A stretch of 64,000 nucleotides of DNA from Candidatus Photodesmus blepharonis (GTDB lineage: Bacteria > Pseudomonadota > Gammaproteobacteria > Enterobacterales > Vibrionaceae): positions 62,001-126,000 of the forward strand of contig NZ_JGVK01000006.1 in NCBI RefSeq assembly GCF_000731795.2, written 5' to 3'. Positions within the stretch are counted from its first letter, which is position 1, and each line of letters opens with the position of its first letter. Below the pieces are notes generated by a model. It saw nothing but the letters and a program-made list of their open reading frames with translations. It ran no database searches and was not told the origin of the DNA. The position numbers were made by a program, and so were the translations under genes. This document shows, piece by piece, positions 15,180 through 47,312 of the stretch.

Positions 15180-16202
15180 ATGAGGCCAGTGACTATCCTT
15201 CTTCTATGTGGCGGCAACTCAGCAGAGTATGCAGTATCACTAATGTCAGCCAATTACTTACAATCTCAACTCGAACTAACGCAATCCTTTTCCGTAATTT
15301 GCGTAAAAATTAAGAAAGATGGTTGGTATAATAGCAATGATGACTTAGTATATCTAGATACTAATAACTCTAAACTTAACAGTGAAGTAAGTTCGATACA
15401 AATAGATTTTGCCATACCATGCATACATGGATATCCAGGAGAAACGGGGGATATCCAATCTGTGCTTGAACTTGCAAGAATCCCTTACTTAGGTTCTCGA
15501 CCTGAAGCCAGCAGTAATAGCTTTAATAAAATAACATCAAAACTCTGGTATAAGGCACTAGATATCCCCAATACGCCATATCTCTTTCTTAACGAAAATA
15601 ATAGAGAAGCCTTCGAAAAGACTAGAAATGCCTTGAAACGTTGGAAAACAATATTTATAAAAGCAGCAAGACAAGGGTCTTCAGTTGGATGTTACAAAGT
15701 AACAGATGTCAAAAAGATACAAGAATCTATCAATTTTGCGTTTCAATACTCTAGTCAAGTGTTGGTTGAACAAGCAGTCAAATCAAGGGAACTAGAAGTA
15801 GCAGCATACGAGTTCAATGGAAAATTGCATATTTCAAAACCTGGTGAAATAATAACACCAAATGATGCATTCTATTCGTATGAAGAAAAATATGGAGCAA
15901 ACAGCGGTTCTGTTGTAGAAATTGAAGCTTCTAATTTAACACAAAAACAGAAAACTACCATTTCAAAAAATGCTCGAAAAATCTTTATTCAAATGCGTCT
16001 AAGACACTTATCACGAATAGATTTTTTCTTAACAGAAGATGAGCATATTTATTTGAACGAGATTAATACATTTCCTGGAATGACATTAATGTCAATGTTT
16101 CCTAAAATGCTTGAAAATAATGGACACAAATTTTCTAAATTCTTATCCAGCTGCATTTATGGCTCAATTAAAAAAGGCTGCTCTAAAAAATCTCTTTTTT
16201 AA
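15180..16202 (+). CDS. ddlA: D-alanine--D-alanine ligase
   Basis: Ddl joins two D-Ala for the peptidoglycan pentapeptide. The protein is an ATP-grasp enzyme of 340 aa counted from ATG at 15180. LLLCGGNSAE starts the N-terminal domain, PCIHGYPGETGDIQS the central signature, and KAARQGSSVG and EINTFPGMT mark the ATP/metal site. The frame is open to 15123, but the 19 added residues are not family-like, so the inner ATG is chosen. The long CIHGxxGETGDIQS-type N-lobe resembles vibrio DdlA more than DdlB of the mra/fts cluster. It is convergent with perM, with 8 bases between stops. Confidence 0.93.
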   Translation: MRPVTILLLCGGNSAEYAVSLMSANYLQSQLELTQSFSVICVKIKKDGWYNSNDDLVYLDTNNSKLNSEVSSIQIDFAIPCIHGYPGETGDIQSVLELARIPYLGSRPEASSNSFNKITSKLWYKALDIPNTPYLFLNENNREAFEKTRNALKRWKTIFIKAARQGSSVGCYKVTDVKKIQESINFAFQYSSQVLVEQAVKSRELEVAAYEFNGKLHISKPGEIITPNDAFYSYEEKYGANSGSVVEIEASNLTQKQKTTISKNARKIFIQMRLRHLSRIDFFLTEDEHIYLNEINTFPGMTLMSMFPKMLENNGHKFSKFLSSCIYGSIKKGCSKKSLF

Positions 16203-16210
16203 AAAAAGAA

Positions 16211-17281
16211 TCACTCTTCCGCGCTAACATCTTCGTCATGATTTGACAAGACATTCCATACTGCTTTAACCAAAGTTGCCAATGGTATCGCAAAAAATAC
16301 TCCCCAAAAACCCCAAAATCCTCCAAATACAAGAACAGAAGAAATAATCGCCACGGGATGCAAATTAACTGCCTCAGAAAACAGAACTGGAACTAAAATA
16401 TTACCATCCAAAGTTTGAATGCTGCTATAAATCAACATCAACCAATAAAATTGGGGCGTCAATCCCCATTGAAAAAGACCAATAATAGCTACTGGAACAG
16501 TAACTACTGCAGCACCAATATAGGGAACTAATACAGAAAATCCAATTGCAACAGAAAGTAATACAGCATAGCGCAAACCTAACACTGCTAAAGCGACATA
16601 ACTAATACCTCCTACAATTAGAATTTCTAAAACCTTACCACGAATATAATTCGAAATTTGATCATTCATCTCATACCAAACTTTATTTGCCAATTTACGA
16701 TTTTTTGGAAGTACAACAGTAACTATTGAAATCATTTCTTGCTTATCCTTTAATAAGAAAAAGACTAAAATCGGAACTAAGACAAGATAAACAACTAACG
16801 TTGCAATACTAAGTAATGATGCTACAGAACCTTTTAAGATACTTTCTCCAACCGCAATAACTTGATTTTTTATATTAGCTATCAATAATTCAACAATCTG
16901 TAAATTTGCCAATTCTGGATAACGCTTAGGGACAATAGATACAAAATTTTGCAAACCTATATACATGTTAGGCACATCGTTAGTAAAATTCCCAACTTGC
17001 TGCCAAATAGTAGGCACTAAGCCAAATACCGCCATCAGCATTAAACTCGTGAAAATTAGTATTACTAAAACAACCGACAAAGTACGAGAAATACCTAATC
17101 TGCTTAAGTTAACGACCGGCCACTCCAACAAATAAGCAAGCACCATTGCAACTAACAGAGGGGCAATGAGATTACCAAAAAAGTAAATAATAATAAAACC
17201 AAATACTAAAATAGCCGCAAGACTTACTGCATGAGGATCAGAAAAACGCTGTTTATACCAACAACTAACCATCTCTAACAT
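16211..17281 (-). CDS. perM: AI-2E/PerM-family membrane transporter
   Basis: This 356-aa inner-membrane protein has about seven or eight hydrophobic segments in the layout of the AI-2E transporter (UPF0118/PerM) family: two helices near the N-terminus, a soluble stretch around residues 100-150, then a C-terminal group ending in a GFWGFWGVFFAIPLATLVKAV-like family signature. The family includes the quorum-signal exporter TqsA and Na+/H+ antiporter-like proteins, so the substrate cannot be assigned. The start is ATG at 17281. It stands alone, downstream of nqrM on the same strand with about 140 bases of spacer. Confidence 0.88.
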   Translation of the reverse strand: MLEMVSCWYKQRFSDPHAVSLAAILVFGFIIIYFFGNLIAPLLVAMVLAYLLEWPVVNLSRLGISRTLSVVLVILIFTSLMLMAVFGLVPTIWQQVGNFTNDVPNMYIGLQNFVSIVPKRYPELANLQIVELLIANIKNQVIAVGESILKGSVASLLSIATLVVYLVLVPILVFFLLKDKQEMISIVTVVLPKNRKLANKVWYEMNDQISNYIRGKVLEILIVGGISYVALAVLGLRYAVLLSVAIGFSVLVPYIGAAVVTVPVAIIGLFQWGLTPQFYWLMLIYSSIQTLDGNILVPVLFSEAVNLHPVAIISSVLVFGGFWGFWGVFFAIPLATLVKAVWNVLSNHDEDVSAEE

Positions 17282-26794: not shown

Positions 26795-28207
26795 ATGAAC
26801 TTAAATCCTTTAGGGATGGCTGCAAATATAGACTTAAATTCTATGGTTACGAAGATTGTTGACGCAGAACGATTACCCAAACAGAAACGTATTGATCGTG
26901 AAGTGGCTAATATTAATTCCAAAATTAGTGCATACGGACAACTTAAGGCGTCGTTGGATACTATGAAGGATTTAATGGTAGATTTTCGTCAAGAGAAGAC
27001 TTTTTCGGCAAGAAAAGCTCATACTTCTGATGAAAACGTTGTTGTGGCGATGGCAACAACAGGCGCCATTGCTGGTCAGTACACTATGAATGTACTGCAA
27101 CTTGCCAAAAAACATAAAATCGCATCCAGAGTTGTACCACAACAAGAAGATAGATTTGGTCCAGGAGATTTACAAATTCAACTTGGTAATAAAAGGTTTT
27201 TAATTAGCATAAAGAATAACTCTAAGCTAGTAGACATAGCAAAAAAAATAAACGGAAATCAAACTAATCCTGGAGTACAAGCATCTATCATTAATGAGAA
27301 CGAAGGAAAACGACTTGTTCTTACTTCAAATATATCTGGCAAAGAAAACACTATACGAGTATCAGCACATACACAATCAGACAATCCACTAAAGAAATTT
27401 GAGTATAAATATGAAATAGACGATACTGATCCCCAAGTTACAAAAAAGATACTAAGTACATACCAAGGCATGATTCAAGTTCAGCCCGCACAAAATTCAG
27501 AAGTTATAGTTGATGGTATCGCACGACTTTCTAGCCACAATAACATAATGGAAAATGCTATTAATGGAATTAACTTAACTTTAAAAAGAAAAATGGAACT
27601 TAACGAGCCACCGATAAAAATTGACATCAGATATAATACACAGAAAGTAGAAAAGAATATTGAACGTTTTATTGCTGCTTATAACCAATTTCACCAAACG
27701 TCGAAAGAACTGAGCTCTCTTGATCCTAAAACAGGGCAAGTAGGTCCTCTAGCCGGTGATAATGTTGCTATGAGCATTGCTTCTCGCCTGAAAAAAGTTT
27801 TTTCATCGCCAATTCTTCCAGCTCCTCAAGAAATCAAATCACTAACTGAATTTGGTATTACTACTACGCGCCAAGGTACACTTGAAGTTAACTACAGTAT
27901 TTTAAATCGAAAAATCAATGATAATTTTAATAAACTCAAAATGTTTTTCGGCGGAAATCAAGGATTTGCAAGAAAAATAGAAGATGCCATTCAAAATATA
28001 ACAGGAACAAGTGGAGCAATTCGTATTCAAGAGAAAAGTTTAATGGAAAAGAACTACCGACTCAAGGATGACAAAATGCTGCTTAAGCATCGCATGGATA
28101 ATCTAGAAAAACGTACTCATGCCCAATTTACTTCTATGCAAAATGCAACCAGAAAAATGCAGTATCAATTAACCAGTATGATGGAGGCAATAAAATTAAC
28201 AACATGA
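26795..28207 (+). CDS. fliD: Flagellar filament cap protein FliD
   Basis: FliD (also called FlaH/HAP2) caps the growing filament and folds flagellin. The N-terminal FliD_N region (residues about 5-105, including IVDAERLPKQKRID) and the C-terminal FliD_C region (from about 235, with DGIARLSSHNN and TLEVNYSILNRKINDN) are present, ending in a coiled-coil segment. At 470 aa it resembles the enterobacterial length; many vibrio homologues are, as I recall, well over 600 aa, so outer domains may have been lost. It overlaps flaI by 4 bases. Confidence 0.93.
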   Translation: MNLNPLGMAANIDLNSMVTKIVDAERLPKQKRIDREVANINSKISAYGQLKASLDTMKDLMVDFRQEKTFSARKAHTSDENVVVAMATTGAIAGQYTMNVLQLAKKHKIASRVVPQQEDRFGPGDLQIQLGNKRFLISIKNNSKLVDIAKKINGNQTNPGVQASIINENEGKRLVLTSNISGKENTIRVSAHTQSDNPLKKFEYKYEIDDTDPQVTKKILSTYQGMIQVQPAQNSEVIVDGIARLSSHNNIMENAINGINLTLKRKMELNEPPIKIDIRYNTQKVEKNIERFIAAYNQFHQTSKELSSLDPKTGQVGPLAGDNVAMSIASRLKKVFSSPILPAPQEIKSLTEFGITTTRQGTLEVNYSILNRKINDNFNKLKMFFGGNQGFARKIEDAIQNITGTSGAIRIQEKSLMEKNYRLKDDKMLLKHRMDNLEKRTHAQFTSMQNATRKMQYQLTSMMEAIKLTT

Positions 28208-33556: not shown

Positions 33557-35293
33557 GTGGCAGATGCAAATCAAACAACAGATTTAACGCTCGCTGATTC
33601 ATCAGATAATCACGCAATGGTTTCGAGTTCAAATCCTAGCGTAGAAAAACAAAATTCTGGTTTAAATAGAAAAAACTTTGCTAAATTTAACTTAACAATA
33701 GGTAACCTAGACCTCTTACGCCAGATAGTTTCAATTTTATCCATTTCAATCTGTGTTGCATTAATCATTATGCTATTTTTCTGGGCTAAAGAATCAGAAA
33801 TGCGTCCTTTGGGTACGTATGAAACAAATGAACTTATTCCAATTTTGGACTATCTTGATCAAAGAAAAGCTAACTATAAACTAGAAGGCAATACTCTTTC
33901 AGTGCCTGTAAATAAGTATAGTAGTCTTAAACTTGATCTTGCTCGTGCAGGGTTAAACCAAGAAACGCAAGCCGGAGACGAAATACTATTAAAAGATATG
34001 GGATTTGGAGTTTCACAACGCTTAGAATCGGAGCGTCTTAAACTTAGCAGAGAACGTCAACTTTCTAAGGCTATTGAAGAAATGCAGCAGGTACGTAAAG
34101 CGCGTGTTCTTCTTGCTCTACCAAAACAAAGTGTTTTTGTCCGCCATCATCAAGAAGCATCAGCTTCAGTTTTTTTAACGTTACGAACTGGTTCACTTCT
34201 AAAACAAGAAGAAATTTACTCAGTAATTGATATGGTATCAAGCGCCGTTCCTGGTATGAAACCAAGCCGTATTACAGTCACCGATCAGCATGGTCGCCTA
34301 TTAAATTCTGGATCCCAAGATTCAGCATCTTCTGCACGCAGTAAAGAACATGAACTAGAACGTAAACAAGAACAGACACTACGTGAAAAAATTGATTCCG
34401 TGCTTATCCCTATATTAGGCTTTGGCAACTACACAGCTCAAGTTGATATTGAATTGGATTTTAGTACAATTGAACAAACGCGCAAACATTTTGATCCAAA
34501 ATCTCCATCAACTCGTAGCGAGCACACTTTAGAAGATTACAACAATGGTAATATAATTGGTGGTATACCAGGAGCACTTAGTAATCAACCTCCAGCTGAC
34601 GCATCAATTCCAGAAGATATAGCAAAAATGAAAAGTGATTCTATTGCTGACAAAGCTTCAACTCGCAAAGAAAGTACGCGTAATTTTGAACTAGACACTA
34701 CGGTCAGTCATGAAAGACGACAAACTGGTACTATTAGTCGTCAAACTATTTCAGTAGCAGTCAAAAATCGAGCATCAATTAACCCAGATAGTGGTCAAAC
34801 AAACTATACTCCCTTATCGAATAGCGAACTTGACTCAATTCGTCAATTGCTAATTGGCGCCGTCGGCTTCAATGAAATGCGCGGCGACTTACTAAATGTC
34901 CTCAGTATGCAGTTTGCAGTACCTGAAGTGGAATCAACAATCGATACTCCAATTTGGGAACATCCAAATTTTAATAATTGGATGCGTTGGATTACTAGCG
35001 CTCTAATCATTATTGTGATCGTAGTTGTTCTCCTACAGCCAGCCATGAAAAAATTACTTAACCCAACAACAAATGAAGAACAGCTTCATAAACCAGACAA
35101 TTTATCTATTAGCGACGATAGCAAAGCAAATTTTATCGATGATAATATCGAGAATAATGAACTATTAGAATTTACTTCCAACATTGATTTACCTAATTTG
35201 CATAAAGATGAAGACATACTTAAAGCGGTGCGATCTTTAGTCGCCAATGAACCTGAGTTAGCTGCTCAAGTAGTAAAAAATTGGATGAAATAA
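33557..35293 (+). CDS. fliF: Flagellar MS-ring protein FliF
   Basis: FliF forms the MS ring in the inner membrane. The 578-aa protein has a first membrane helix at about 56-77 (SISICVALIIMLFFW), the YscJ/FliF ring-building domains (MRPLGTYETNELIPILDYLDQ onwards), a second helix at about 475-495 and a cytoplasmic C-terminus that binds FliG. The start is GTG at 33557, matching the vibrio N-terminus (ADxxxTDLTLADSS). It begins 20 bases after fliE, and the stop overlaps the fliG ATG. Confidence 0.96.
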   Translation: MADANQTTDLTLADSSDNHAMVSSSNPSVEKQNSGLNRKNFAKFNLTIGNLDLLRQIVSILSISICVALIIMLFFWAKESEMRPLGTYETNELIPILDYLDQRKANYKLEGNTLSVPVNKYSSLKLDLARAGLNQETQAGDEILLKDMGFGVSQRLESERLKLSRERQLSKAIEEMQQVRKARVLLALPKQSVFVRHHQEASASVFLTLRTGSLLKQEEIYSVIDMVSSAVPGMKPSRITVTDQHGRLLNSGSQDSASSARSKEHELERKQEQTLREKIDSVLIPILGFGNYTAQVDIELDFSTIEQTRKHFDPKSPSTRSEHTLEDYNNGNIIGGIPGALSNQPPADASIPEDIAKMKSDSIADKASTRKESTRNFELDTTVSHERRQTGTISRQTISVAVKNRASINPDSGQTNYTPLSNSELDSIRQLLIGAVGFNEMRGDLLNVLSMQFAVPEVESTIDTPIWEHPNFNNWMRWITSALIIIVIVVVLLQPAMKKLLNPTTNEEQLHKPDNLSISDDSKANFIDDNIENNELLEFTSNIDLPNLHKDEDILKAVRSLVANEPELAAQVVKNWMK

Positions 35294-36351
35294 TGCCTAA
35301 CGAAATTACGAACCAAGAAAACACAAGCAAGAAAAAAAAACAAAACAGCGTGGATATCTCTAGCATTATTGGCGATGAAAAAGCCGCCATCCTACTACTT
35401 AGCTTAAATGAAGATGATGCCGCTGGAATTATTCGTCACTTAGAACCTAAGCAAGTTCAACGCGTAGGTAGTGCGATGGCACGCGCATCAAACTTAAATC
35501 AAGAAAAGGTAGGAGCTGTCTATCGTGCCTTTTTGGAAGATATCCAGAAATATACCAATATCGGTGTGAAAAGTGAAGATTTCATGCGTAACACCTTAAC
35601 GGCAGCACTTGGTGCAGACAAAGCTAATAATTTAGTTGATCAAATTTTATTAGGCACAGGATCAAAAGGACTGGATTCATTGAAATGGATGGACCCACGT
35701 CAAGTCGCTAGCATTATCATTAATGAACATCCTCAGATTCAAACAATTGTACTTTCATATCTAGAAGCTAATCAATCTGCTGAAATTTTATCTCAATTTT
35801 CTGAACGCGATCGTCTTGATCTCATGATGCGCATTGCTAATCTAGAAGAAGTCCAACCTTCTGCTTTAGCTGAATTAAACGAAATTATGGAAAAACAATT
35901 TGCAGGCCAAGCTGGCGCTCAAGCTGCTAAAATTGGTGGATTTAAAGCTGCTGCAGAAATTATGAACTACATGGATAACAGTCTTGAAAATGTCTTAATA
36001 GAACAGATCCGAGATCAAGATGAAGATATGGCAACTCAAATTCAAGATCTTATGTTCGTTTTCGAAAACCTTATAGAAATTAACGATCAAGGTATTCAAA
36101 AATTACTACGTGACATACCACAAGATATTCTAAAAAAATCGCTTAAAGGTGCTGATGACACCTTGCGTGATAAGATCTTTAAGAATATGTCGAAACGTGC
36201 AGCTGAAATGATGCAAGATGATTTAGACACTATGCCACCAGTGAAAATATCTGATGTGGAAGCCGCTCAAAAAGAGGTTCTAGCTATTGCTCGACGTATG
36301 GCTGATAAAGGTGAAATTATGCTTTCAAGCGGTGCAGATGAATTCTTGTAA
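35293..36351 (+). CDS. fliG: Flagellar motor switch protein FliG
   Basis: FliG couples stator force to rotor rotation and sets direction. I start it at ATG 35293, which overlaps the fliF stop (TAATG); a TTG four codons upstream is less likely. The 352-aa protein contains the FliG N, middle (with GGFKAAAEIMNYMD) and C-terminal domains. The charged torque helix region near residues 295-315 (LRDKIFKNMSKRAAEMMQDDL) is intact. Confidence 0.96.
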   Translation: MPNEITNQENTSKKKKQNSVDISSIIGDEKAAILLLSLNEDDAAGIIRHLEPKQVQRVGSAMARASNLNQEKVGAVYRAFLEDIQKYTNIGVKSEDFMRNTLTAALGADKANNLVDQILLGTGSKGLDSLKWMDPRQVASIIINEHPQIQTIVLSYLEANQSAEILSQFSERDRLDLMMRIANLEEVQPSALAELNEIMEKQFAGQAGAQAAKIGGFKAAAEIMNYMDNSLENVLIEQIRDQDEDMATQIQDLMFVFENLIEINDQGIQKLLRDIPQDILKKSLKGADDTLRDKIFKNMSKRAAEMMQDDLDTMPPVKISDVEAAQKEVLAIARRMADKGEIMLSSGADEFL

Positions 36352-36387
36352 TTGTATTGAAAATACTTAAATAATCAGGGAACAAAT

Positions 36388-37194
36388 ATGTTCAATAAGA
36401 AAAAGCTAGGCTTCTTGCGCCCTAACAAAAATCAGGCTATCGTTGAGGAAGCTAAAAAATGGAAGTTACCTGACTACAGCGATAAAACAAATAAAAAAAT
36501 TAGAAAGGAGACTGCAGTTAATTACAATCCTAAACGGACGCTAAACTTTAATGAACCAATAAAAAAAGAAATACCTCCTCTCACTGAAGAAGATATTGAA
36601 TCAATTAAAAAAAATGCTTATCAGGAAGGTGTGCTTAAAGGTAAGGAAACGGGTTTTAAGAAGGGATATGATAAAGGTAAAAAACAAGGCTTGGATGTAG
36701 GTTATCAGGAAGGCGTCGATCAAGGAAAAATCAAAGGCATAAAAGAAGGTCAAGAGTTTATTCAACAACAAGTACAGACTTTCATAAAATTAGCCGATAA
36801 GTTTAATCAACCTTTAGAAATGATAACTGATCAGATAGAAAAACAACTAATTGATATGATATTGATTTTAGTTAAAGAAATTGTTCATATCGAGGTGAAA
36901 ACCAATCCTAAAATTGTTCTAGATACGATTAAACAATCCATCAAAGCTTTACCGATTTCGGAACACACCACGATACTTAAACTTCATCCTGATGATATAG
37001 AAATTATCCACTCATTCTATAGTAAAAAAGAACTCGATTCTCGAAAATGGATATTGTCCGCTGAGTCAACACTTAATCGTGGTGATATTCAAATCAAAGT
37101 AAACGAATCAAATTTAGACTATAAAATAGAAGATAGAATTCAAAGTGTTATCCGTAATTTTTTGATCTCTAACAATATTAATAGTAATGAATAG
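36388..37194 (+). CDS. fliH: Flagellar export ATPase regulator FliH
   Basis: FliH binds the ATPase FliI and anchors it at the C ring. The 268-aa protein carries the tell-tale GxxxG-type repeat around residues 75-125 (EGVLKGKETG, GYDKGKKQG, GYQEGVDQG), followed by the conserved C-terminal domain (LVKEIVHIEVKTNPKIVLDTI). The N-terminal half is lysine-rich and poorly conserved. The stop overlaps the fliI GTG (TAGTG). Confidence 0.92.
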   Translation: MFNKKKLGFLRPNKNQAIVEEAKKWKLPDYSDKTNKKIRKETAVNYNPKRTLNFNEPIKKEIPPLTEEDIESIKKNAYQEGVLKGKETGFKKGYDKGKKQGLDVGYQEGVDQGKIKGIKEGQEFIQQQVQTFIKLADKFNQPLEMITDQIEKQLIDMILILVKEIVHIEVKTNPKIVLDTIKQSIKALPISEHTTILKLHPDDIEIIHSFYSKKELDSRKWILSAESTLNRGDIQIKVNESNLDYKIEDRIQSVIRNFLISNNINSNE

Positions 37195-38525
37195 TGTTAA
37201 AACTCGTTGAACGTCTCACTCGATATAAAATACAAGGACTCGATTCTCAACCTGTCGTATCTGGAAAATTAATTCGTGTTGTTGGTTTGACTCTGGAAGC
37301 AACAGGATGCCGAGCACCTATTGGTAGTTTGTGTAAAATTGAAACTGTGCATGGTGAAATGGAGGTAGAGGTCATCGGTTTTTCTGGCGAAGATTTATAT
37401 CTCATGCCAATGGAGCAAATAATTGAAGTTCTTCCAGGGGCTAAAATAACGCCGCTAACAGACAAAATAGGTCTACCTGTTGGTATGGAACTACTGGGAC
37501 GTGTAATTGACGGCGTTGGAAATCCATTAGATAACTTAGGTCCAATTTATACCGAAAAAAGAGCATCATTTAATACTGAACCTATCAATCCTCTTATCCG
37601 TAAACCAATTAGTGAACCACTTGATGTTGGATTAAAAGCAATTAATGGCCTACTAACTGTAGGAAAAGGTCAGCGTATAGGCTTATTTTCAGGCTCCGGT
37701 GTAGGGAAATCGGTTACATTGGGAATGATGACTCATGGTACAACTGCTCAAGTTACAATAGTAGGATTAATTGGAGAACGTGGGCGTGAAGTAAAAGAAT
37801 TCATCGAACAAATTTTAGGTGTTGAAGGTCGTAAGAATTCAGTAGTCATTGCAGCTCCAGCAGATACTTCGCCGCTTATGCGACTTAAAGGTTGTCAAAG
37901 CGCGCTGACTATTGCTGAATATTTTCGCGATCAGGGTTTTGATGTATTACTCTTGATGGACTCATTAACTCGTTTTGCACAAGCACAACGCGAAATTGCA
38001 TTATCCGTCGGGGAACTACCTGTGGCTAAGGGTTACCCACCTTCAGTATTCGCCAAACTTCGTGAACTTATTGAAAGAGCAGGCAATCGCGGTAAAGATG
38101 AGGGCTCCATCACAGCATTTTTTACCATCTTAACAGAAGGAGATGATTTACAAGATCCAATAGCAGACGCGTCATGTGCAATTCTTGACGGTCACATTAT
38201 TCTGTCCAGAGAAATGGCCAATGCAGGTCATTATCCTGCAATCGATATAGAAAAATCTGTTAGTCGCATTATGCCACGGATTACAACGGATAAACATATA
38301 CTGCTCTCAAAAAAAGTCAGAAGAATACTATCAATCTGCCGTCAAAATCAAGATTTGATTTCTATTGGTGCTTATCAACCAGGTAAAAACCCAATTATTG
38401 ATAATGCTCTTGCACTAAAAACTAAGCTTGACCAATACTTACAACAAGGTATAAAAGAGAGGGTGCCATATGATGTGTCTGTTAATATGCTGGAAAGCAT
38501 TCTTGAAACTGACCCAATTGAGTAA
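37194..38525 (+). CDS. fliI: Flagellum-specific ATPase FliI
   Basis: FliI is the F1-beta-like ATPase of the flagellar type III export apparatus. The 443-aa protein has Walker A GSGVGKS at residues 167-173, the GERGREVKEFIE segment and Walker B LLLMDSLTR. The GTG start at 37194 overlaps the fliH stop. It is followed by fliJ with 6 bases between. All key residues look intact. Confidence 0.97.
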   Translation: MLKLVERLTRYKIQGLDSQPVVSGKLIRVVGLTLEATGCRAPIGSLCKIETVHGEMEVEVIGFSGEDLYLMPMEQIIEVLPGAKITPLTDKIGLPVGMELLGRVIDGVGNPLDNLGPIYTEKRASFNTEPINPLIRKPISEPLDVGLKAINGLLTVGKGQRIGLFSGSGVGKSVTLGMMTHGTTAQVTIVGLIGERGREVKEFIEQILGVEGRKNSVVIAAPADTSPLMRLKGCQSALTIAEYFRDQGFDVLLLMDSLTRFAQAQREIALSVGELPVAKGYPPSVFAKLRELIERAGNRGKDEGSITAFFTILTEGDDLQDPIADASCAILDGHIILSREMANAGHYPAIDIEKSVSRIMPRITTDKHILLSKKVRRILSICRQNQDLISIGAYQPGKNPIIDNALALKTKLDQYLQQGIKERVPYDVSVNMLESILETDPIE

Positions 38526-38531
38526 AATGAG

Positions 38532-38972
38532 ATGAAAAAAAAACTGTTTTTTTTATTAAAACAATTTAGGAAACGAGAAAAACAAACCCTCTCAGCACTA
38601 AATACCGTTCATGCAGAACTAAAAAATTATCACCAAAAACTTTTAAAGATAAAAGAATATCGACTGGAGTACTGTAAACAACTAATCAAAAAAGGTATAG
38701 CTGGACTACCTGCTAATCAATATCAACATCTAAATTATTTTCTCATACAGCTTGATGAAACACTATCAAGAGAAGAACAAACTGAAGCTCATTTGCAATC
38801 ACGGATTAATAATTTTCAAAAATGCTTATTAGAAATTCGAAGACAATGCCGTTTTTGCGAAGAATTGATCGAAAAAAAGAAAGCTGAGTATCAAAAAAAC
38901 CAAGATCTTTGTGAAGAAAAGAAGATTGATGAACTTTTCACATCACAATTTAAACGTCATAAACTAAAATAA
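38532..38972 (+). CDS. fliJ: Flagellar export protein FliJ
   Basis: FliJ is the coiled-coil stalk that couples FliI to the FlhA export gate. This is a 146-aa, strongly helical, Lys/Glu/Gln-rich protein, as expected for the family, identified chiefly by position behind fliI and by the coiled-coil pattern. It ends the fliEFGHIJ unit; a sigma-54-type promoter for fliK follows 17 bases after its stop. Confidence 0.85.
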   Translation: MKKKLFFLLKQFRKREKQTLSALNTVHAELKNYHQKLLKIKEYRLEYCKQLIKKGIAGLPANQYQHLNYFLIQLDETLSREEQTEAHLQSRINNFQKCLLEIRRQCRFCEELIEKKKAEYQKNQDLCEEKKIDELFTSQFKRHKLK

Positions 38973-38988
38973 ACTTTATTTTTTTAAA

Positions 38989-39004
38989 TGGTGTATTTTT
39001 TGCT
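38989..39004 (+). promoter_or_regulatory. Sigma-54 promoter of the fliK-flhB unit
   Basis: TGGTGTATTTTTTGCT matches the -24/-12 pattern TGGCAC-N5-TTGCW with exact GG and GC spacing (10 bases between). It lies 58 bases before the fliK ATG, in the right direction, between fliJ and fliK. Vibrio fliK-flhB units are known to be sigma-54/FlrC dependent, so position and sequence agree. The third to sixth bases of the -24 box deviate from consensus (TGT for CAC). Confidence 0.75.
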
Positions 39005-39062
39005 TAGCAATTTAGTATTAGCTCAATCACATTTACCAGCAACAATATGAGCATCGTCTATT

Positions 39063-40580
39063 ATGAATGTAAGTTCAATTAAAATTGAAGAACAGTTTCA
39101 AGAAAATCAAACCGCAACAAAAAGAAACACTACTTCTAATTCAATAAAAAGTAATACTTTTTCAACGGAACTCATCACTCTACTAGCAGAAAGTTCAAGC
39201 AACAATAAAAAAGATGAAGAAACTAATGTCATCAAAAAAAAGATATTGGATAAAAATAAAGAGGCAAATATCAAGCTGAAGCTGAATATTAATAAAAAAA
39301 CAATACAAGCACCCACAGAATCACTTTTTTCTTCAGAAAAACAAGAAAAAGACGAGCTTTTAGGTGTATTAAATTCATGTGATCTTACTAATACATTTAA
39401 ACTCAAAGATGGCAAATTCTTGCCTAGCAATACAGAGATAAAAAAACTCTATAAAAATAAAAGTGATGGAGAAAACCTAGTCGCTATTGATTGCGTCCCA
39501 AATCAGAACCAAACACTTACTGAATATCCTAAATTTCAAGAGCAAGACAACGCATTTCAATCTTTAAAAACTGAAACCTCAAATATACAAAAAAAAGAGA
39601 AAACTGCAATACGATCAGCACAAAATACTGACGAAATTTCAACCGAAAAACTTGGAATAGAAGAGATTGGACAAGAACAAAGAGCGAAAACTGATCAACT
39701 AATTATGACGAAACAAATTGTTACTTTGTCTTCAGATCAACAAACAAAAAATTCTGTTTTGAATACAACAACTGCTGAAACCATTGATCAAAAAACTCAA
39801 GAAGCTATAACTGCTAAAAGAATCCAACAAAAAAACATTCAATTAATAACCTCTACCGACAACATGTCAGAATCAAAAACTGCTTTTGTAATACGAGTTG
39901 ATCTCAACCAACTGACACCTCAACCATTATCAATAACACCTCATGCATTGACAATACAGCAACTTAATAATCAAATACCATTGTCTAAAACAGCTTCAAA
40001 TTCTGAAATAATGAAGAATCTAAATGAAGAACATAACTTATTTATCGAACAAAAAAGCACAGCGTTAATCCAGCAATTCATCACTATTTTAAATCAACAA
40101 ACTCTCAATGACTCGCAAATGAGTTTAGAACAAATACCAATGACTCATATATCTTCGCAATTTAAAACAAGGATATCAGAGCAAGTTGCAGAACATATCT
40201 ATATGATAATGTCAAAAAACTTAAAGCATATTAACATTCAATTCGATCCTTCTGAATTAGGGAAAATACAAATTCGCATGAACGTAAGCAATGATAGCAC
40301 TACTGTAAATTTCACAGTAGTTAATCCACAAACTAAAGATATAATCGAGCAATCCATCCCTCGTTTACGTGAAATGTTAGCCCAACAGGGCATTCAGTTA
40401 AGTGACACCTCTGTTCAACAACAAAATTCTGAACAAGAAAATCGCTATTTAGAACAGAGCAGAATAAATTTTAATCCAGCTTCAAACGATATTATTAACA
40501 ATCAGAAAGATACTAAGGTAGATTTAGATTTAAGTTTGAATATTACAACAAAACATGATGGAATCAGCTGCTACGCTTAA
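39063..40580 (+). CDS. fliK: Flagellar hook-length control protein FliK
   Basis: FliK measures hook length and triggers the FlhB specificity switch. The 505-aa protein is low-complexity and Lys/Thr/Gln-rich through residue about 370. It then has the conserved C-terminal Flg_hook domain (NIQFDPSELGKIQIRM; SIPRLREMLAQQGIQL). The base composition of the N-terminal part is more AT-rich than its neighbours, typical of FliK linkers in AT-rich genomes. It begins downstream of the sigma-54 promoter and should belong to one unit through flhB. Confidence 0.92.
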   Translation: MNVSSIKIEEQFQENQTATKRNTTSNSIKSNTFSTELITLLAESSSNNKKDEETNVIKKKILDKNKEANIKLKLNINKKTIQAPTESLFSSEKQEKDELLGVLNSCDLTNTFKLKDGKFLPSNTEIKKLYKNKSDGENLVAIDCVPNQNQTLTEYPKFQEQDNAFQSLKTETSNIQKKEKTAIRSAQNTDEISTEKLGIEEIGQEQRAKTDQLIMTKQIVTLSSDQQTKNSVLNTTTAETIDQKTQEAITAKRIQQKNIQLITSTDNMSESKTAFVIRVDLNQLTPQPLSITPHALTIQQLNNQIPLSKTASNSEIMKNLNEEHNLFIEQKSTALIQQFITILNQQTLNDSQMSLEQIPMTHISSQFKTRISEQVAEHIYMIMSKNLKHINIQFDPSELGKIQIRMNVSNDSTTVNFTVVNPQTKDIIEQSIPRLREMLAQQGIQLSDTSVQQQNSEQENRYLEQSRINFNPASNDIINNQKDTKVDLDLSLNITTKHDGISCYA

Positions 40581-40621
40581 AATTCTATGTGAACTAGATT
40601 TAATGAAAGGGTTCCATTGTA

Positions 40622-40722
40622 GAAATAGTTGTTGAGATCTCACCTCATGGAAGCAAAGATGAAAAGATCTCAGTGATAGAACATTGACAATCATTGGACA
40701 TATGTGCCTGTTCAGAAATTAG
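40622..40722 (+). pseudogene. fliL: Probable remnant of fliL 3' end
   Basis: In vibrios fliL lies between fliK and fliM; here only 152 bases separate them. One frame from 40628 reads VVEISPHGSKDEKISVIE, resembling the FliL VEELRSPxGxxDELR region, then meets a stop. After a shift, LTIIGHMCLFRN (40684-40719) resembles the C-terminal GxP..EKVLFTNF region with residues missing. The N-terminal two thirds of the gene, including the membrane helix, are gone. The match is short and by eye only. Confidence 0.45.
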
Positions 40723-40732
40723 GTATTAGGAA

Positions 40733-41731
40733 ATGACCGAACTATTAAGTCAAGATGAAATTGATGCTCTGCTTCATGGAACAGATAAAGTAGAAGATGA
40801 AACGGAAAAGAAAAATAAAAATGGTTCTGTTATAGATTTTGATTTCTCTTCTCAAGATCGTATCGTACGTGGAAGGATGCCAACACTTGAGTTAATTAAC
40901 GAACGTTTTACCCGACATTTACGCATCAGCCTGTTTAACATGCTTCGTAAAACTGCTGAAGTATCAATTAATGGAGTACAAATGGTAAAATTTGGTGAAT
41001 ACCAAAATACCCTATATGTGCCAACAAGTCTAAATATGGTACGCTTTAGACCGCTGAAAGGAACTGCCTTGGTTACTATGGAAGCACGTTTAGTGTTCAT
41101 TTTGGTAGAAAATTTTTTTGGTGGTGACGGTCGATTCCATGCACGTATTGAAGGTCGTGAGTTCACTCCAACAGAACGCCGAATTATTCAGCTTTTGCTT
41201 AAAATCATTTTTGCAGATTACAAAGAAGCTTGGTCTCCAGTTATGGAAGTAGAATTTGAATACTTAGATTCTGAAGTAAATCCAAGCATGGCAAATATAG
41301 TTAGCCCAACCGAAATAATCGTCGTAAGTTCATTTCATATTGAAGTCGATGGAGGAGGTGGTGACTTCCATATCGTTATGCCATATTCGATGGTAGAACC
41401 AATACGTGAAATACTAGATGCAGGCGTGCAATCTGATAAGATGGAAACGGATATTCGCTGGAGTTCAGCACTGCGGGAAGAAATAATGGATGTCCCCGTT
41501 AACTTTAGAGTTAATTTACTTGATCAAGATATTTCCCTACGGGATTTAATGGAACTACAAGTTGATGATATCATCCCAATTACAATGCCGGAGTACGCCA
41601 CGATGTTTATCGAAGAATTACCGACATTCCGTGTAAAAATGGGGCGTGTTGGCGAAAATATGGCAATAAAAATTTCTGAAAAAATTAAACGTCCTGATGT
41701 AGTTAAAACAGATCTCATTTTTTCTGACTAA
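40733..41731 (+). CDS. fliM: Flagellar motor switch protein FliM
   Basis: FliM forms the C ring and binds CheY-P. The 332-aa protein has the N-terminal CheY-binding peptide (LSQDEIDALLHG), the central CheC-like domain with the VDGGGGDFHIVMPYS segment, and the C-terminal SpoA domain that packs with FliN. It is intact although the preceding fliL is lost. A TTAGGTATTAGGAA sequence provides the ribosome site. Confidence 0.96.
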   Translation: MTELLSQDEIDALLHGTDKVEDETEKKNKNGSVIDFDFSSQDRIVRGRMPTLELINERFTRHLRISLFNMLRKTAEVSINGVQMVKFGEYQNTLYVPTSLNMVRFRPLKGTALVTMEARLVFILVENFFGGDGRFHARIEGREFTPTERRIIQLLLKIIFADYKEAWSPVMEVEFEYLDSEVNPSMANIVSPTEIIVVSSFHIEVDGGGGDFHIVMPYSMVEPIREILDAGVQSDKMETDIRWSSALREEIMDVPVNFRVNLLDQDISLRDLMELQVDDIIPITMPEYATMFIEELPTFRVKMGRVGENMAIKISEKIKRPDVVKTDLIFSD

Positions 41732-41793
41732 TATAAAATCTCAAAACTTTCGGAAAATAGTAATCATGAATATTAAAGTAGGTGAATCAAAGA

Positions 41794-42204
41794 ATGGATC
41801 AAAATGACGACCAAAAACTGGCAGATGAATGGACTTCAGCCTTAGATGAAGATGCAAAAGCAGAAGAGATCGATGTTAATGATGCTATTTCAGCACCACT
41901 GGATGAATTAAAAGATACATCGTCACCAATTTCAGAAGATGAGCGTCGTAAGTTAGATGCTATTTTGGATATTCCAGTTACTATCTCTATGGAAGTTGGG
42001 CGATCTAAAATTAGCATTCGAAATCTATTACAACTTAACCAAGGTTCAGTTGTAGAATTGGGGAGAGTTGCTGGAGAATCTCTTGACGTCTTAGTTAATG
42101 GCACTCTAATTGCGCATGGTGAAGTCGTTGTCGTTAATGACAAGTTTGGTATTCGTTTAACAGACGTTATTAGTCAGACAGAACGCATTAAAAAACTTAG
42201 ATAA
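41794..42204 (+). CDS. fliN: Flagellar motor switch protein FliN
   Basis: FliN completes the C ring and docks the export ATPase complex. The ATG at 41794 is preferred over a GTG four codons upstream, because AGGTGA lies 8 nt before it and the resulting 136 aa begin like vibrio FliN (DQNDDQKLADEW). The C-terminal SpoA domain (PVTISMEVGRSKISIRNLLQL to the end) is well conserved. Confidence 0.95.
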   Translation: MDQNDDQKLADEWTSALDEDAKAEEIDVNDAISAPLDELKDTSSPISEDERRKLDAILDIPVTISMEVGRSKISIRNLLQLNQGSVVELGRVAGESLDVLVNGTLIAHGEVVVVNDKFGIRLTDVISQTERIKKLR

Positions 42205-42250
42205 ATAAATATTAGCTACTAAGAAAAAGTTTCTAACAGGTAAATAACTC

Positions 42251-42595
42251 ATGCAACCTAAAGTCTTATTATTTTCTTTACTTCCATCCAGTGCATTTTC
42301 TGCATCCGAAGATCAAATTAATCTAATGACAACTTTTGGCTCACTCTTATTCGTTATTGCACTCATGTTATTTTTAGCCTGGTTTTTTAAAAAAATGCGT
42401 CTTCCAATATTAATCAATCAAAAAAATTTAAGTATTATTCAGCAACTCCCTGTCGGGGCTAAAGAAAGAATTATGATAATCGAAGCAGGAGAAGAGAGAT
42501 TTCTTGTCGGAGTAACCAGCCGATCGATTAAGCTCATCTCTAAATTGGAAAAATCTATAACTCAAGAGCATTTACAATTTTCTAAAGAAAATTAG
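42251..42595 (+). CDS. fliO: Flagellar export protein FliO
   Basis: FliO is a small membrane protein that helps assemble FliP. The 114-aa product has an N-terminal hydrophobic stretch, a clear membrane helix at about residues 27-46 and a cytoplasmic part with [31 protein letters not shown], the family signature. It sits in order between fliN and fliP. Confidence 0.92.
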
Positions 42596-42599
42596 ACCA

Positions 42600-43469
42600 T
42601 TGAAAATAGAAAAAAAAAATAGTCATATCCTACACATAGCATGTATCGCTATACTCTCTCTTTTTACATTTTCAGCTTCTTCTCAACAAAGAATTAACAT
42701 TCCTACTCTGAATACTATTATTGCAAATTCTCAGAGTCTTTCTCTTAAGCCAGAAGAAAGACACAATCTATCATCCGATATAGTGATAAGAGATAATGGT
42801 ATTCCCGCTTTCACCATAACCACTAATCCGGATGGTAGAGAAGACTACTCAATAAATTTGCAAATCCTTGCATTAATGACGATACTTGGTTTTTTGCCGG
42901 CTATGGTCGTTTTGATGACATCATTTACACGCATTGTGGTAGTGATGTCTATCTTACGTCAAGCCATAGGTTTGCAACAAACCCCATCAAACCAAGTGAT
43001 TATTGGTATCGCAATATTCTTAACCTTTTTTATTATGTCTCCAGTAATCAATAAGGTTAATACGCAAGCTGTTCAACCTTACCTAAACGAAGAAATTTCA
43101 GCTCGTCAAGCCTTTAAAATCGCTCAAGAACCAATCAAAGCATTTATGCTTAAGCAAACTCGAATAAAAGATCTAGAAACCTTTGTTAATATCGCGGAAT
43201 CTAAGGCAGTAACACCAGAAGAAGTTTCAATGCAAATTTTAATTCCCGCTTTCATTACTTCTGAACTTAAAACTGCCTTCCAAATTGGTTTTATGCTATT
43301 TCTACCATTTTTGATTATTGATCTTGTAATTGCATCTATTTTGATGGCTATGGGTATGATGATGTTGTCACCAATGATTGTATCTCTACCATTTAAACTG
43401 ATATTGTTCGTTTTAGTGGATGGATGGAATTTGATTTTGTCTACGTTAGTTGGTAGCTTTGCTTTATAG
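42600..43469 (+). CDS. fliP: Flagellar export gate protein FliP
   Basis: FliP is the main protein of the FliPQR export gate. The 289-aa product has a cleavable signal (about residues 1-29) and the four-helix pattern with [26 protein letters not shown] and [15 protein letters not shown] segments. The start is TTG at 42600, 4 bases after fliO; the ribosome site is weak, suggesting coupling. No ATG alternative precedes the signal peptide. Confidence 0.96.
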
Positions 43470-43481
43470 TAACTAAAGTTT

Positions 43482-43751
43482 ATGGATCCTGAATTTTTTG
43501 TTGAAATATTCCGAGAAGCACTATGGGTAGTACTTATCATGGTGAGTGTTATTATTGTACCGAGCTTACTTATTGGTTTACTTATTGCCGTCTTCCAAGC
43601 TGCAACATCAATTAATGAACAAACATTAAGCTTCTTGCCTCGTTTAATTTTTACATTGCTAACATTGATGTTTTGTGCTCATTGGATGCTACAAATTTTA
43701 ACAGAATTTTTCTTTAATATTATTGATCGACTACCTCATATACTATATTAG
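43482..43751 (+). CDS. fliQ: Flagellar export gate protein FliQ
   Basis: This 89-aa protein has two membrane helices (about residues 15-37 and 55-75) and the conserved VPSLLIGLLIAVFQAATSINEQTLSFLPR segment. It is part of the FliPQR pore of the type III export apparatus. It lies 12 bases after fliP. Confidence 0.96.
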   Translation: MDPEFFVEIFREALWVVLIMVSVIIVPSLLIGLLIAVFQAATSINEQTLSFLPRLIFTLLTLMFCAHWMLQILTEFFFNIIDRLPHILY

Positions 43752-43764
43752 GATATAACAGACA

Positions 43765-44553
43765 ATGGAAGAGTATCCAAGTAACATAATTTTAAGTTGG
43801 ATATCGAATTATTTTTGGGTTTATGTACGAGTTTCATCAATGTTGATGGTTATGTCAGTAACAGGAGCTAGATTCGTTACTCCTCGAATTCGTCTTTACC
43901 TAGGACTCGCGATAACTTTTACTATAAGCACAACAATTCCAACAGTATCTAACGACATTTCTCCATTTTCTTTTAAAGGTTTAGAAATTATTCTAGAGCA
44001 AATTATTATTGGAATCTCTATGGGATTTATAACCCAGTTTATGATTCAAACTTTTGTAATTTTAGGTCAAATACTCGGTATGCAATCCAGTTTAGGTTTT
44101 GCCTCTATGGTTGATCCAGTGAATGGACAAAATACCCCATTACTTGGTCAATTATTTATGTTTTTATCAATAATGTTTTTTCTATCGACTGATGGACATT
44201 TGAAAATGATTCAACTCATGGCTATAAGTTTTAAAACCTTGCCAATAGAAAAAAGTTCACTCAGCGCTGTTGATTTTCGAGAAATAGCGTTGTGGCTCGG
44301 TATTATGTTCAAGACTGCGTTAAACATATCACTATCTGGAATCATTGTGCTACTAACTGTTAACTTATCCTTTGGGATGATGACCCGCACCGCACCGCAG
44401 TTAAACATCTATTCACTCAGTTTTGCTTTTACACTCTTAGTAGGACTTTTACTCTGTTGGTATATCCTCAGTAGTTTGCATAGCCATTATCACTTATTCA
44501 GAATTCAAATCGAACAACAAGTATGTCGTTTAATTCAATTAAATTGCTTATAA
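43765..44553 (+). CDS. fliR: Flagellar export gate protein FliR
   Basis: FliR completes the FliPQR gate and contacts FlhB. The 262-aa product has about six membrane segments. Family landmarks are the SLGFASMVDPVNGQNTPLLGQ stretch and the RTAPQLNIYSLSF loop. It starts 13 bases after fliQ and ends 22 before flhB. Confidence 0.95.
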   Translation: MEEYPSNIILSWISNYFWVYVRVSSMLMVMSVTGARFVTPRIRLYLGLAITFTISTTIPTVSNDISPFSFKGLEIILEQIIIGISMGFITQFMIQTFVILGQILGMQSSLGFASMVDPVNGQNTPLLGQLFMFLSIMFFLSTDGHLKMIQLMAISFKTLPIEKSSLSAVDFREIALWLGIMFKTALNISLSGIIVLLTVNLSFGMMTRTAPQLNIYSLSFAFTLLVGLLLCWYILSSLHSHYHLFRIQIEQQVCRLIQLNCL

Positions 44554-44575: not shown

Positions 44576-45703
44576 ATGAAAAGTTCCGGCGAAGAACGCA
44601 CAGAAGAAGCCACACCCAGACACCTACAGCAGGCTAGATCGAAAGGACAAGTTGCGAGATCAAAAGAATTATCTTCGGTGCTAGTACTAATTTTTGGCGC
44701 AATTTCACTTATATGGTTTGGAGATGCCTTAGCCAAAGCACTGTTTCGCACTATGTATCGTTTATTTACACTTAGTCATGAGGAAATATTTAGTCTCTCT
44801 AAATTAAATCACATTATTTTAAACTCTTTATCAGATCTATTTAGTCAACTAATCCTTATTCTCATCACATTATTTATCGCCTCACTCGTCGGTACATTTG
44901 GGGTAGGAGGTCTGCACTTTTCGGCGCGAGCAGCAATGCCTAAGCTGTCTAAAATCAATCCATCAATCGGTTTTAAACGCATGATTGGACTTCATACTTG
45001 GGTAGAACTTATTAAATCAATTTTAAAAATATTAATAGTTTCCAGCATTGCATTTTATTTAATTAACACTTCTAAAAAAGAATTGTTTCAACTTAACATG
45101 GGTGCATTTCCAAAAAATATTTTCGATGCTCTGAGTACATTACTAAATTTCACCTTACTTATTAGTTGCTCGTTATTACCAATAGTAGCTATAGATGTTC
45201 CGTTTCAAATTTTACGACATACTGCTCAACTAAAAATGAGCAAACAAGAGGTTAAAGATGAATATAGAAATACAGAAGGTAGACCTGAAATCAAGGGTCG
45301 AATTCGTTTGTTGCAGCGAGAAATGGCTCAACGTAGAATGATGACAAACGTACTAGAAGCTGATGTTATTATCACTAATCCAAAATACTTTTCGGTTGCA
45401 CTTCGTTATAAACAAAATTTAGACAAAACACCAATTTTGATTGCTAAAGGTATTGACTATATGGCATTGAGAATAAAAAAAGTAGCGAATGAAAATAACA
45501 TCCAGATCGTTCCAGCTCCAACACTTGCTCGCTCTTTATACTACACAACAGAACTAGAAGAAAAAATCCCAGATGGTTTATTTACCGCAGTAGCCCAGGT
45601 ACTAGCGTATGTATTCCAATTAAAACAATATCGCAAGCATGGTGGAAGACGACCTACATTTAAATCAGAAAACATACCGATTCCATCAAATTTAAGGTAT
45701 TAG
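44576..45703 (+). CDS. flhB: Flagellar export switch protein FlhB (altered cleavage motif)
   Basis: FlhB gates export and switches substrate from hook to filament proteins after autocleavage of its cytoplasmic domain between Asn and Pro of NPTH. The 375-aa protein has the normal N-terminus (GEERTEEATPRHLQQAR), four membrane helices, and the EVKDEYRNTEGRPEIKGRIR linker. At the cleavage site, however, residues 268-271 read NPKY instead of NPTH (bases 45377-45388), followed by FSVALRY. Asn and Pro, the scissile pair, are kept; Thr and His are not. The C-terminal tail is otherwise normal. flhA, flhF, flhG and fliA, which usually follow, are absent here. Confidence 0.95.
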   Translation: MKSSGEERTEEATPRHLQQARSKGQVARSKELSSVLVLIFGAISLIWFGDALAKALFRTMYRLFTLSHEEIFSLSKLNHIILNSLSDLFSQLILILITLFIASLVGTFGVGGLHFSARAAMPKLSKINPSIGFKRMIGLHTWVELIKSILKILIVSSIAFYLINTSKKELFQLNMGAFPKNIFDALSTLLNFTLLISCSLLPIVAIDVPFQILRHTAQLKMSKQEVKDEYRNTEGRPEIKGRIRLLQREMAQRRMMTNVLEADVIITNPKYFSVALRYKQNLDKTPILIAKGIDYMALRIKKVANENNIQIVPAPTLARSLYYTTELEEKIPDGLFTAVAQVLAYVFQLKQYRKHGGRRPTFKSENIPIPSNLRY

Positions 45704-45776
45704 AAAACACTTAATATCAAACCAAATTCAATATTTTCCGATTCAAGGTTCTGTCATTCTAGCTTAGAAATAATAC

Positions 45777-45811
45777 ATTTCCTTTAAAAAGTTCAATGAA
45801 AAAAAGGAAAT
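45777..45811. repeat. Inverted repeat between convergent flhB and tilS
   Basis: ATTTCCTTT (45777-45785) and AAAGGAAAT (45803-45811) form 9-base arms around a 17-base loop in the 295-base spacer between the convergent genes. It could act as a weak terminator for either gene, but there is no GC core or T run. The remainder of the spacer holds no gene that I can see. Confidence 0.25.
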
Positions 45812-45998
45812 ATATAAACTTAATAGCTCAACGAAGCTTCAACGTTTTTTAAATTCGTATTTACATAGCTTCAATCTCTTCTATAACTAATATCTTAAAC
45901 CCAGAACTACAATATAACCATGAATAACTGCTATCGTTTATATCTTTAAAGGATGATAGTTATCAAAACTATAATCTTCCAGAGTTCATACCAAAAAA

Positions 45999-47312
45999 TT
46001 ATTTATTCCAAATAAGCTTACAATCTTGACCATAAAATTTTTTGTCAACAAAGACGCCAGCGACGGCAACCACCTTATAGGAAGCCGATACTAATATTGG
46101 AACTCGACGCCTCAACCAACTCGGAAGTTCATATTCCTGAAATAGTTTTTTTAGCTTACGAGAACAACCTCTTTCTACAGGATGAGCAGATAAGCCTGCT
46201 GGGTTAAAAATAACACTTAGGGTTTGTTGAGAAAGAGCCTTGAAAGATAAAGTGGCACCTTCACCATTCACAAGAGATAAATATCCCAAACTATCCGGTA
46301 ACTTAACACTACCTCCTAATTTCAACGGAGCACTCCAAGCGCTAATATCTTGCATATGATTAACTAAGTACAACTTTTTCTTAAATCTTCGCACTTGTGC
46401 ATCAACAAGGTTAAGTACTGGGTTTGCATCTCGCCTCGATAACGCGATCTCATTCCAAATCCTACTAAGATGATCTTTGCTAGGCATTAAGTAATCCTTG
46501 CTCTTAAACCACATCCGAATAACTCTATTCCTTACGACTTCGCTGTATTCGCCTAATGTTCTAATTGATAAACTTCCATCGACAGACATGGCGTTTTGAA
46601 ACGAACTCGCAAGTAAATCATCAAGTAAATTTTCTTGCTCCGCACACAGCATAGCGCTACGATTAACTGATTTATGAAATGAAGGCCAACGCTCAACAAT
46701 CACTGGCAGTACTCGGTGACGGATAAAATTACGATCGAAACGAGTATCATTATTGCTTTCATCTTCAATCCAACTAAACTTTTTCTGTTTAGCATACTGC
46801 TCAATTAGACTCCGAGTGATATTAAGAAAAGGCCGAACAATAAACCCAGAATTCCAAGGCATGCACTGCGCCATTGAAGAAAGTCCTCTGGGACCACTAC
46901 CTCTCTTGAGTGCTAAAAAAAAAGTTTCCAACTGATCATCACTATGATGCCCTGTTAGAAGAAGATCACCAATTTCAACGTGCTTTTTTAGAGCTTGATG
47001 GCGACCTTCTCGAGCGACCTTTTCTAAGCTAACAACTCCTAAAGTGTTTAATTCAATTCTTTCAACATAACAAGTAATAGATAAATTGGTGCACCAATTT
47101 AAACACTGATTAGCCCAGTTATCAGAGAACTGACTTAGGTTATGATGTACATGTACTGCAATACAATCAATTCTCTTAGCATTACGATATTGAACAAGCA
47201 AATCAAGCATGACGAGCGAATCTACACCACCGCTAAAACCCAACACAATTTTCGTACCTAAATTATAGTACTTATCAATAATACGAGAAAAATGATCATA
47301 CAGGCGACTCAT
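45999..47312 (-). CDS. tilS: tRNA(Ile)-lysidine synthetase TilS
   Basis: TilS converts C34 of tRNA-Ile2(CAU) to lysidine, making it read AUA. The 437-aa protein has the ATP-pyrophosphatase PP-loop SGGVDS at residues 27-32, the HHSDDQLETFFLALKRGSG segment and the C-terminal substrate-binding domains. Its substrate tRNA is at 8961-9036. It is the last gene of the frr-to-tilS run, 49 bases after accA. Confidence 0.96.
   Translation of the reverse strand: MSRLYDHFSRIIDKYYNLGTKIVLGFSGGVDSLVMLDLLVQYRNAKRIDCIAVHVHHNLSQFSDNWANQCLNWCTNLSITCYVERIELNTLGVVSLEKVAREGRHQALKKHVEIGDLLLTGHHSDDQLETFFLALKRGSGPRGLSSMAQCMPWNSGFIVRPFLNITRSLIEQYAKQKKFSWIEDESNNDTRFDRNFIRHRVLPVIVERWPSFHKSVNRSAMLCAEQENLLDDLLASSFQNAMSVDGSLSIRTLGEYSEVVRNRVIRMWFKSKDYLMPSKDHLSRIWNEIALSRRDANPVLNLVDAQVRRFKKKLYLVNHMQDISAWSAPLKLGGSVKLPDSLGYLSLVNGEGATLSFKALSQQTLSVIFNPAGLSAHPVERGCSRKLKKLFQEYELPSWLRRRVPILVSASYKVVAVAGVFVDKKFYGQDCKLIWNK

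Follow-up and report, generated by a model that had tools for sequence, protein, structure and literature searches.

The textbook cleavage motif of the flagellar export protein FlhB and its injectisome counterpart SctU is NPTH (Asn-Pro-Thr-His). According to the accessible part of the report on Xanthomonas HrcU (PMC3040844), N264A yielded no cleavage product and P265A little; T266A and H267A cleaved less efficiently, with more uncut protein remaining, and complemented partially. Protein Data Bank entries of EscU T264A (3bzv) and H265A (3bzx) contain chains of 54 aa and 83 aa, as does native EscU, the two separate chains presumably reflecting cleavage. The N262A and N262D entries are single chains of 94-109 residues, and of the two P263A entries 3bzt holds a single chain and 3c03 a mixture of an uncut chain and the 54 and 83 pair. 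For the motif His of YscU the pKa is about 6.3; protonation accompanies dissociation of the CC half, and mutation of this residue affects autoproteolysis according to another study cited in the same source (PMC3504009, accessible part). In the available text on Spa40, the PTH loop is described as flipping out once the protein is cleaved, with the side chains becoming exposed.

Here we describe an FlhB in which this motif reads NPKY, encoded in a stretch of 64,000 nucleotides from Candidatus Photodesmus blepharonis (the window). This bacterium of reduced genome most likely lives as a symbiont in the light organ of a flashlight fish. The features of the gene are as follows.

44576..45703, + strand: flhB, flagellar export switch protein, 375 aa (TIGR00328 above cut-off, PF01312; sole homologue found)
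45377..45388, + strand: self-cleavage motif N268-P269-K270-Y271 (NPKY), codons AAT CCA AAA TAC
45203..45700, + strand: FlhB-C, the cytoplasmic domain with linker, CN and CC halves (AlphaFold2 model, VIA-align)

The HrcU T266A and H267A and EscU T264A and H265A laboratory mutants resemble the window FlhB in that position 3 or 4 is altered and Asn-Pro kept, but they are single Ala changes in injectisome proteins whereas NPKY is a natural double change in a flagellar FlhB. No mutant with Lys and Tyr together was found in the partly accessible literature, in which the described mutants carry single Ala, Asp or Gly or triple Ala substitutions.

Identity of the flhB gene

Window bases 45377-45388 read AATCCAAAATAC and encode residues 268-271, NPKY, in an ORF open across 375 aa, in agreement with the initial annotation of this motif in an otherwise intact FlhB. 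The whole protein scored 394.3 bits with the flhB model TIGR00328, above the curated cut-off of 349.25, even with the customary His at motif position 4 absent (Tyr271); the catalytic Asn-Pro is present as N268-P269, and the PF01312 match spans the full profile. Identity as an injectisome SctU was rejected since the TIGR01404 score of 266.5 bits fell below the cut-off of 358. The window ORF was the only FlhB match in the whole genome, by which a second FlhB covering for it was also rejected.

The window FlhB is up to 68% identical to FlhBs of Vibrio genomes and has the length, domains, fold and Asn-Pro of Vibrionaceae polar-flagellum FlhBs (e.g. 6s3l and 8z5s, which we take to be from V. mimicus and V. 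alginolyticus), the difference being that these carry NPEH or NPDH. The AlphaFold2 model of FlhB-C had a mean pLDDT of 84.1, and its top VIA-align match among the Foldseek-ranked chains compared was the FlhB cytoplasmic domain of Shewanella putrefaciens (6z0w; Z 19.7, rmsd 1.2, 124 residues). The model indicates that FlhB-C keeps the predicted FlhB/SctU family fold and says nothing on cleavage.

The gene is the last of a flagellar run starting at fliG, the order of which is the same in a sister symbiont genome of 1.0 Mb and the same genus (G026). Directly after flhB, at window positions 45704-47312, both symbionts have an opposite-strand gene, presumably tilS, that breaks the flhB-flhA junction; adjacency of the two genes is usual in Vibrio. 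In the window genome flhA is on another contig together with flagellar and chemotaxis genes.

Motif variation and the path of change

Motif reading at 115 further loci (L002-L116, with some species represented twice), the sister symbiont among them, gave NPxH throughout and NPKY nowhere. Thus the comparison with relatives and the symbiont sibling proposed in the initial annotation found NPKY not to be common. Besides the window and L111, 114 loci were entered, and merging of duplicates left 93 distinct proteins plus the sister and the window. Fifteen of the 114 gave no ORF on single-strand reading (L002, L007-L011, L018, L019, L021, L022, L026, L112-L114, L116), and the motifs of these were all NPxH. 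Among the 93, position 3 was E in 73, T in 13, D in 6 and S in 1, while position 4 was H in every protein. Hence the motif described initially as a near-invariant NPTH proved not to be so at position 3, which is Glu or Asp in Vibrionaceae. On sequence comparison the proper reference is the Vibrionaceae NPEH or NPDH, against which only the His change appears unusual.

The aligned motif His is one of 45 columns identical across all 93 other proteins, of which three are partial, so that the N-terminal part could hardly yield such columns. At these 45 positions the window FlhB departs at two (K231R and H271Y) and the sister at none, numbers too few to weigh. A second highly conserved site of FlhB-C is changed by A285T (A in 91 of 93). 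Anglerfish symbionts recorded as Enterovibrio (L062, L066) have kept NPEH and NPDH.

A DNA pattern for NPxH in FlhB context matched 177 of 369 genomes of the class, these being pattern matches and not each confirmed as FlhB. The corresponding pattern with Tyr (NPxY) matched 3 of 369 class genomes and 3 of 394 order genomes, the window among both threes. The four other matches (L126, L127, L132, L133) were not FlhB, which rejects the idea that NPxY is common in FlhB; no FlhB with NPxY besides that of the window was found by the pattern in the 369 and 394 genomes surveyed. The pattern demands F/Y-(S/A)-V-A after the motif, and divergent FlhBs fall outside these counts. Tyr at position 4 was present in one eroded symbiont FlhB, which lacks Asn-Pro (NNNY).

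The sister genome is probably Candidatus Photodesmus katoptron. The assembly containing the window comprises 1,112,309 bp in 33 contigs, and the GC content of the window in 4-kb steps is 34-38%. In the accessible part of a 2017 source (PMC5649133), 'Candidatus Photodesmus blepharus' has 1.11231 Mbp at 35.6% GC, and 'Ca. P. katoptron' 1.01592 Mbp. The sister FlhB is 62% identical to that of the window, and the two genomes have in common the gene order, the opposite-strand neighbour and an undetected FliL; they differ in that the sister retains NPEH and intact cheR and cheB, whereas the window genome has NPKY and both genes broken. The motif codons are AAT CCA AAA TAC in the window and AAT CCG GAG CAT in the sister. 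From the sister state, a single transition at the first base of the codon suffices for Glu to Lys (G to A) and likewise for His to Tyr (C to T), both in the GC-to-AT direction, and the third-base differences are silent.

The rate of change was compared with that of other genes. NG86 dN/dS values between the two symbionts were 0.181 for flhB, 0.184 for dnaE, 0.117 for accA and 0.255 for tilS, all rough with dS above 1 in every gene. Of 212 FlhB positions invariant in 21 Vibrionaceae loci, 37 are changed in the window and 42 in the sister; by hand count the numbers are 21 and 24 before residue 214, and 16 and 18 from there on, which rejects faster evolution of FlhB-C in the window than in the sister. 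In 13 flagellar proteins (21 Vibrionaceae loci for most, 20 for fliR, 13 for fliG and 10 for flhA), 196 of 2044 invariant positions are changed in the window genome and 262 in the sister. The sequence counts indicate that flhB is no outlier relative to the sister. Invariant His is changed at 5 of 23 positions in the 13 proteins of the window genome, four of the five now being Tyr; as changed His in these proteins has mostly become Tyr, H271Y is one of many.

State of the flagellar and chemotaxis genes

The following flagellar features of the window accompany flhB.

35281..44553, + strand: fliG, fliH, fliI, fliJ, fliK, fliM, fliN, fliO, fliP, fliQ and fliR, all open (ORFs; fliL not found)
39063..40580, + strand: fliK, hook-length control and switch partner, 505 aa (PF02120, 82.4 bits)
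26795..28207, + strand: fliD, filament cap and late export substrate, open (PF02465, PF07195)

For each gene of the fliG-to-fliR run, homologues occur in flagellar loci of Vibrionaceae; apart from fliK, the names are our assignments from gene order and sequence. The remaining export-gate genes are open, in support of the initial annotation on this point. Two flagellins, FlgL, FlgK, FliD, FlgM, FlgN, FliA, FlhA and CheA are open in the window genome. In the textbook scheme, late export substrates need the FlhB switch; the open late substrates therefore argue for cleavage. At the 39 FliK positions that do not vary across 21 Vibrionaceae loci, the window protein agrees in 33, its six changes comparing with 12 in the sister. 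Accordingly there was no excess pointing to the compensating FliK change that had been raised, and an unusual FliK was rejected on the same count. FlhA A489E is a known suppressor in Salmonella, and a comparable compensating change in the FlhA of the window genome, which was aligned, is conceivable.

FliL gave no PF03748 match in either Photodesmus-like genome, whereas both Vibrio-type controls matched, and the interval between fliK and fliM (window 40581-40732) is without fliL. Stops and frame breaks interrupt both cheR and cheB of the window genome (L181 11790-12780, - strand, and L180 about 16036-17028, + strand); in the sister both are intact (L186:3760-4587 and L183:2738-3799), encoding a CheR of 275 aa and a CheB of 353 aa. 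Loss of these genes with CheA and an ORF we take to be CheV-like open suggests, from the sequence, chemotaxis without methylation-based adaptation. The sister has a presumed FlgJ-like ORF of 151 aa (L185 13707-14162, - strand) versus 286 aa in the window genome, possibly having lost one domain.

The broken cheR and cheB and the undetected FliL indicate an ongoing loss of part of the motility functions. The suspicion of a flagellum beginning to fail is thus upheld in part, by cheR and cheB (intact in the sister) and by fliL (undetected in both), and is opposed by the open late-substrate and filament genes. The accessible part of one source (PMC6020299, 2018) describes purifying selection as relaxed in Photodesmus genomes, and motility in seawater as a known property of flashlight-fish symbionts, species unspecified.

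Erosion in tiny genomes and interpretation

FlhB-type matches were found in 218 of 295 genomes of a family that is presumably Enterobacteriaceae-like, and the 35 of at most 1.6 Mb, probably Buchnera- and Wigglesworthia-like lineages, were taken further. The motif is eroded by degrees in this set (L134-L163, L187-L191). The motif was read in 29 of these and additionally in G897, with G838, consisting of fragments with stops, left out. The 29 motifs were NPxH in 17, NPxN in two (NPTN and NPVN), NATH in one and further degraded in nine (DVRG, NAKN, SSNS, DNIF, NNNY, DSNN, NTMN, DQIQ and NTIS). G897 has NIKK with the CC half kept, and the readable FlhB of G858, G973, G1005 and G907 stops before the motif, with no CC half in the stretch taken. 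Flagellin was detected in 3 of the 35 (G877, G898, G999); one of these, the 0.7-Mb symbiont G999, keeps flagellin and FliK with NPTN. These tiny-genome endosymbionts are like the window genome in being reduced and AT-rich with the motif relaxed in several; they differ in that Asn-Pro or the CC half is gone from several, with flagellin undetected and FliK mostly undetected, whereas the window genome keeps all of these.

Asn-Pro was kept in 11 of 12 genomes with FliK detected versus 8 of 17 without (Fisher p 0.019 with relatedness ignored; 0.018 with G897 added). With FliK counted as present only in the 9 of 12 genomes whose match passes the Pfam cut-off, the numbers were 8 of 9 versus 11 of 20 (p 0.107), and the link between Asn-Pro retention and the presence of FliK is therefore suggestive only; FliK is poorly conserved, so that absence by PF02120 is weak evidence. 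A literature search covering few subscription journals, judged in part from titles and abstract openings, found no paper on the FlhB motif or autocleavage in symbionts or endosymbionts, and one partly accessible source (PMC13063649, 2026) connects stronger divergence of flhB with host association.

We consider it probable that the window encodes an ordinary FlhB whose motif drifted, and is tolerated, in a single luminous symbiont living obligately with fish, with cleavage retained and the switch working. Direct evidence comes from the sequence, the state of the sister and relatives, the retained Asn-Pro, the fold model and the open FliK and late-substrate genes; drift as the cause, cleavage and its rate are inferred. 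NPEH, the state of the sister and most Vibrionaceae, would have become NPKY via two GC-to-AT transitions; Asn268 would still cyclise and cut before Pro269, splitting FlhB-C into CN and CC, and the hook-to-filament switch would still work, maybe slower or less pH-dependent, the latter because the titratable His is gone. By analogy with the related proteins cleavage is probably retained, with slow cleavage possible, as is slower or pH-insensitive switching. The initial suggestion that cleavage may be absent or replaced gained no evidence, as Asn and Pro are unchanged, the HrcU Thr and His Ala mutants cleave and EscU T264A and H265A are two chains. What speaks against drift with retained cleavage is the His in 93 of 93 other proteins, the reported effect of the YscU His on autoproteolysis and the lower efficiency and partial complementation of the HrcU mutants.

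The same reduced efficiency and the reported importance of the YscU His, together with tiny-genome symbionts that keep FlhB after the motif is gone, would also fit cleavage that is lost or very slow in a flagellum in early decay, in which hooks form but filament export is switched on late or not at all. The cheR and cheB pseudogenes, intact genes in the sister, and the undetected fliL point the same way, but Asn-Pro is retained, the late substrates and FliK are open, the dN/dS of flhB equals that of dnaE and fliL is undetected in the NPEH-keeping sister too; we regard this explanation as unlikely. Selection for Lys-Tyr, altering the post-cleavage surface by a charge reversal and the loss of a His with a pKa near 6 so as to retune docking of FliK or substrates or to remove pH dependence, seems less plausible still. 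It is consistent with the exposed side chains of the Spa40 PTH loop, the YscU His whose protonation tracks CC dissociation and A285T at another highly conserved FlhB-C position; it is at odds with FliK showing no excess of change, with each substitution being a single AT-ward transition and with His to Tyr being usual among the flagellar proteins of this genome. An error of base calling or assembly in either or both of the codons is the most improbable explanation, for although the assembly is a draft in 33 contigs, it would have to account for two separate substitutions in an open frame, both AT-ward as expected in a 36% GC genome.

Beyond drift with retained cleavage, we put forward tentatively, and with considerable doubt, that NPKY marks an early stage of an erosion of the FlhB switch that recurs in host-restricted bacteria, with a slower or pH-blind switch in P. 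blepharus flagella. Erosion would proceed from motif positions 3 and 4 to Pro and Asn and then to the CC half in its entirety, FliK and the filament being lost along with the last steps.

The comparisons indicate that the NPKY FlhB is a natural variant, both real and rare, of a known protein. The variant alone is a modest finding, mainly a test case and a possible early step of wider switch erosion. A Lys-Tyr FlhB with Asn-Pro kept beside an NPEH sister provides a clean test pair for what the motif His and cleavage itself contribute. FlhB frames that outlast the motif in tiny symbionts hint that cleavage may be needed for FliK-dependent late export and not for early export.
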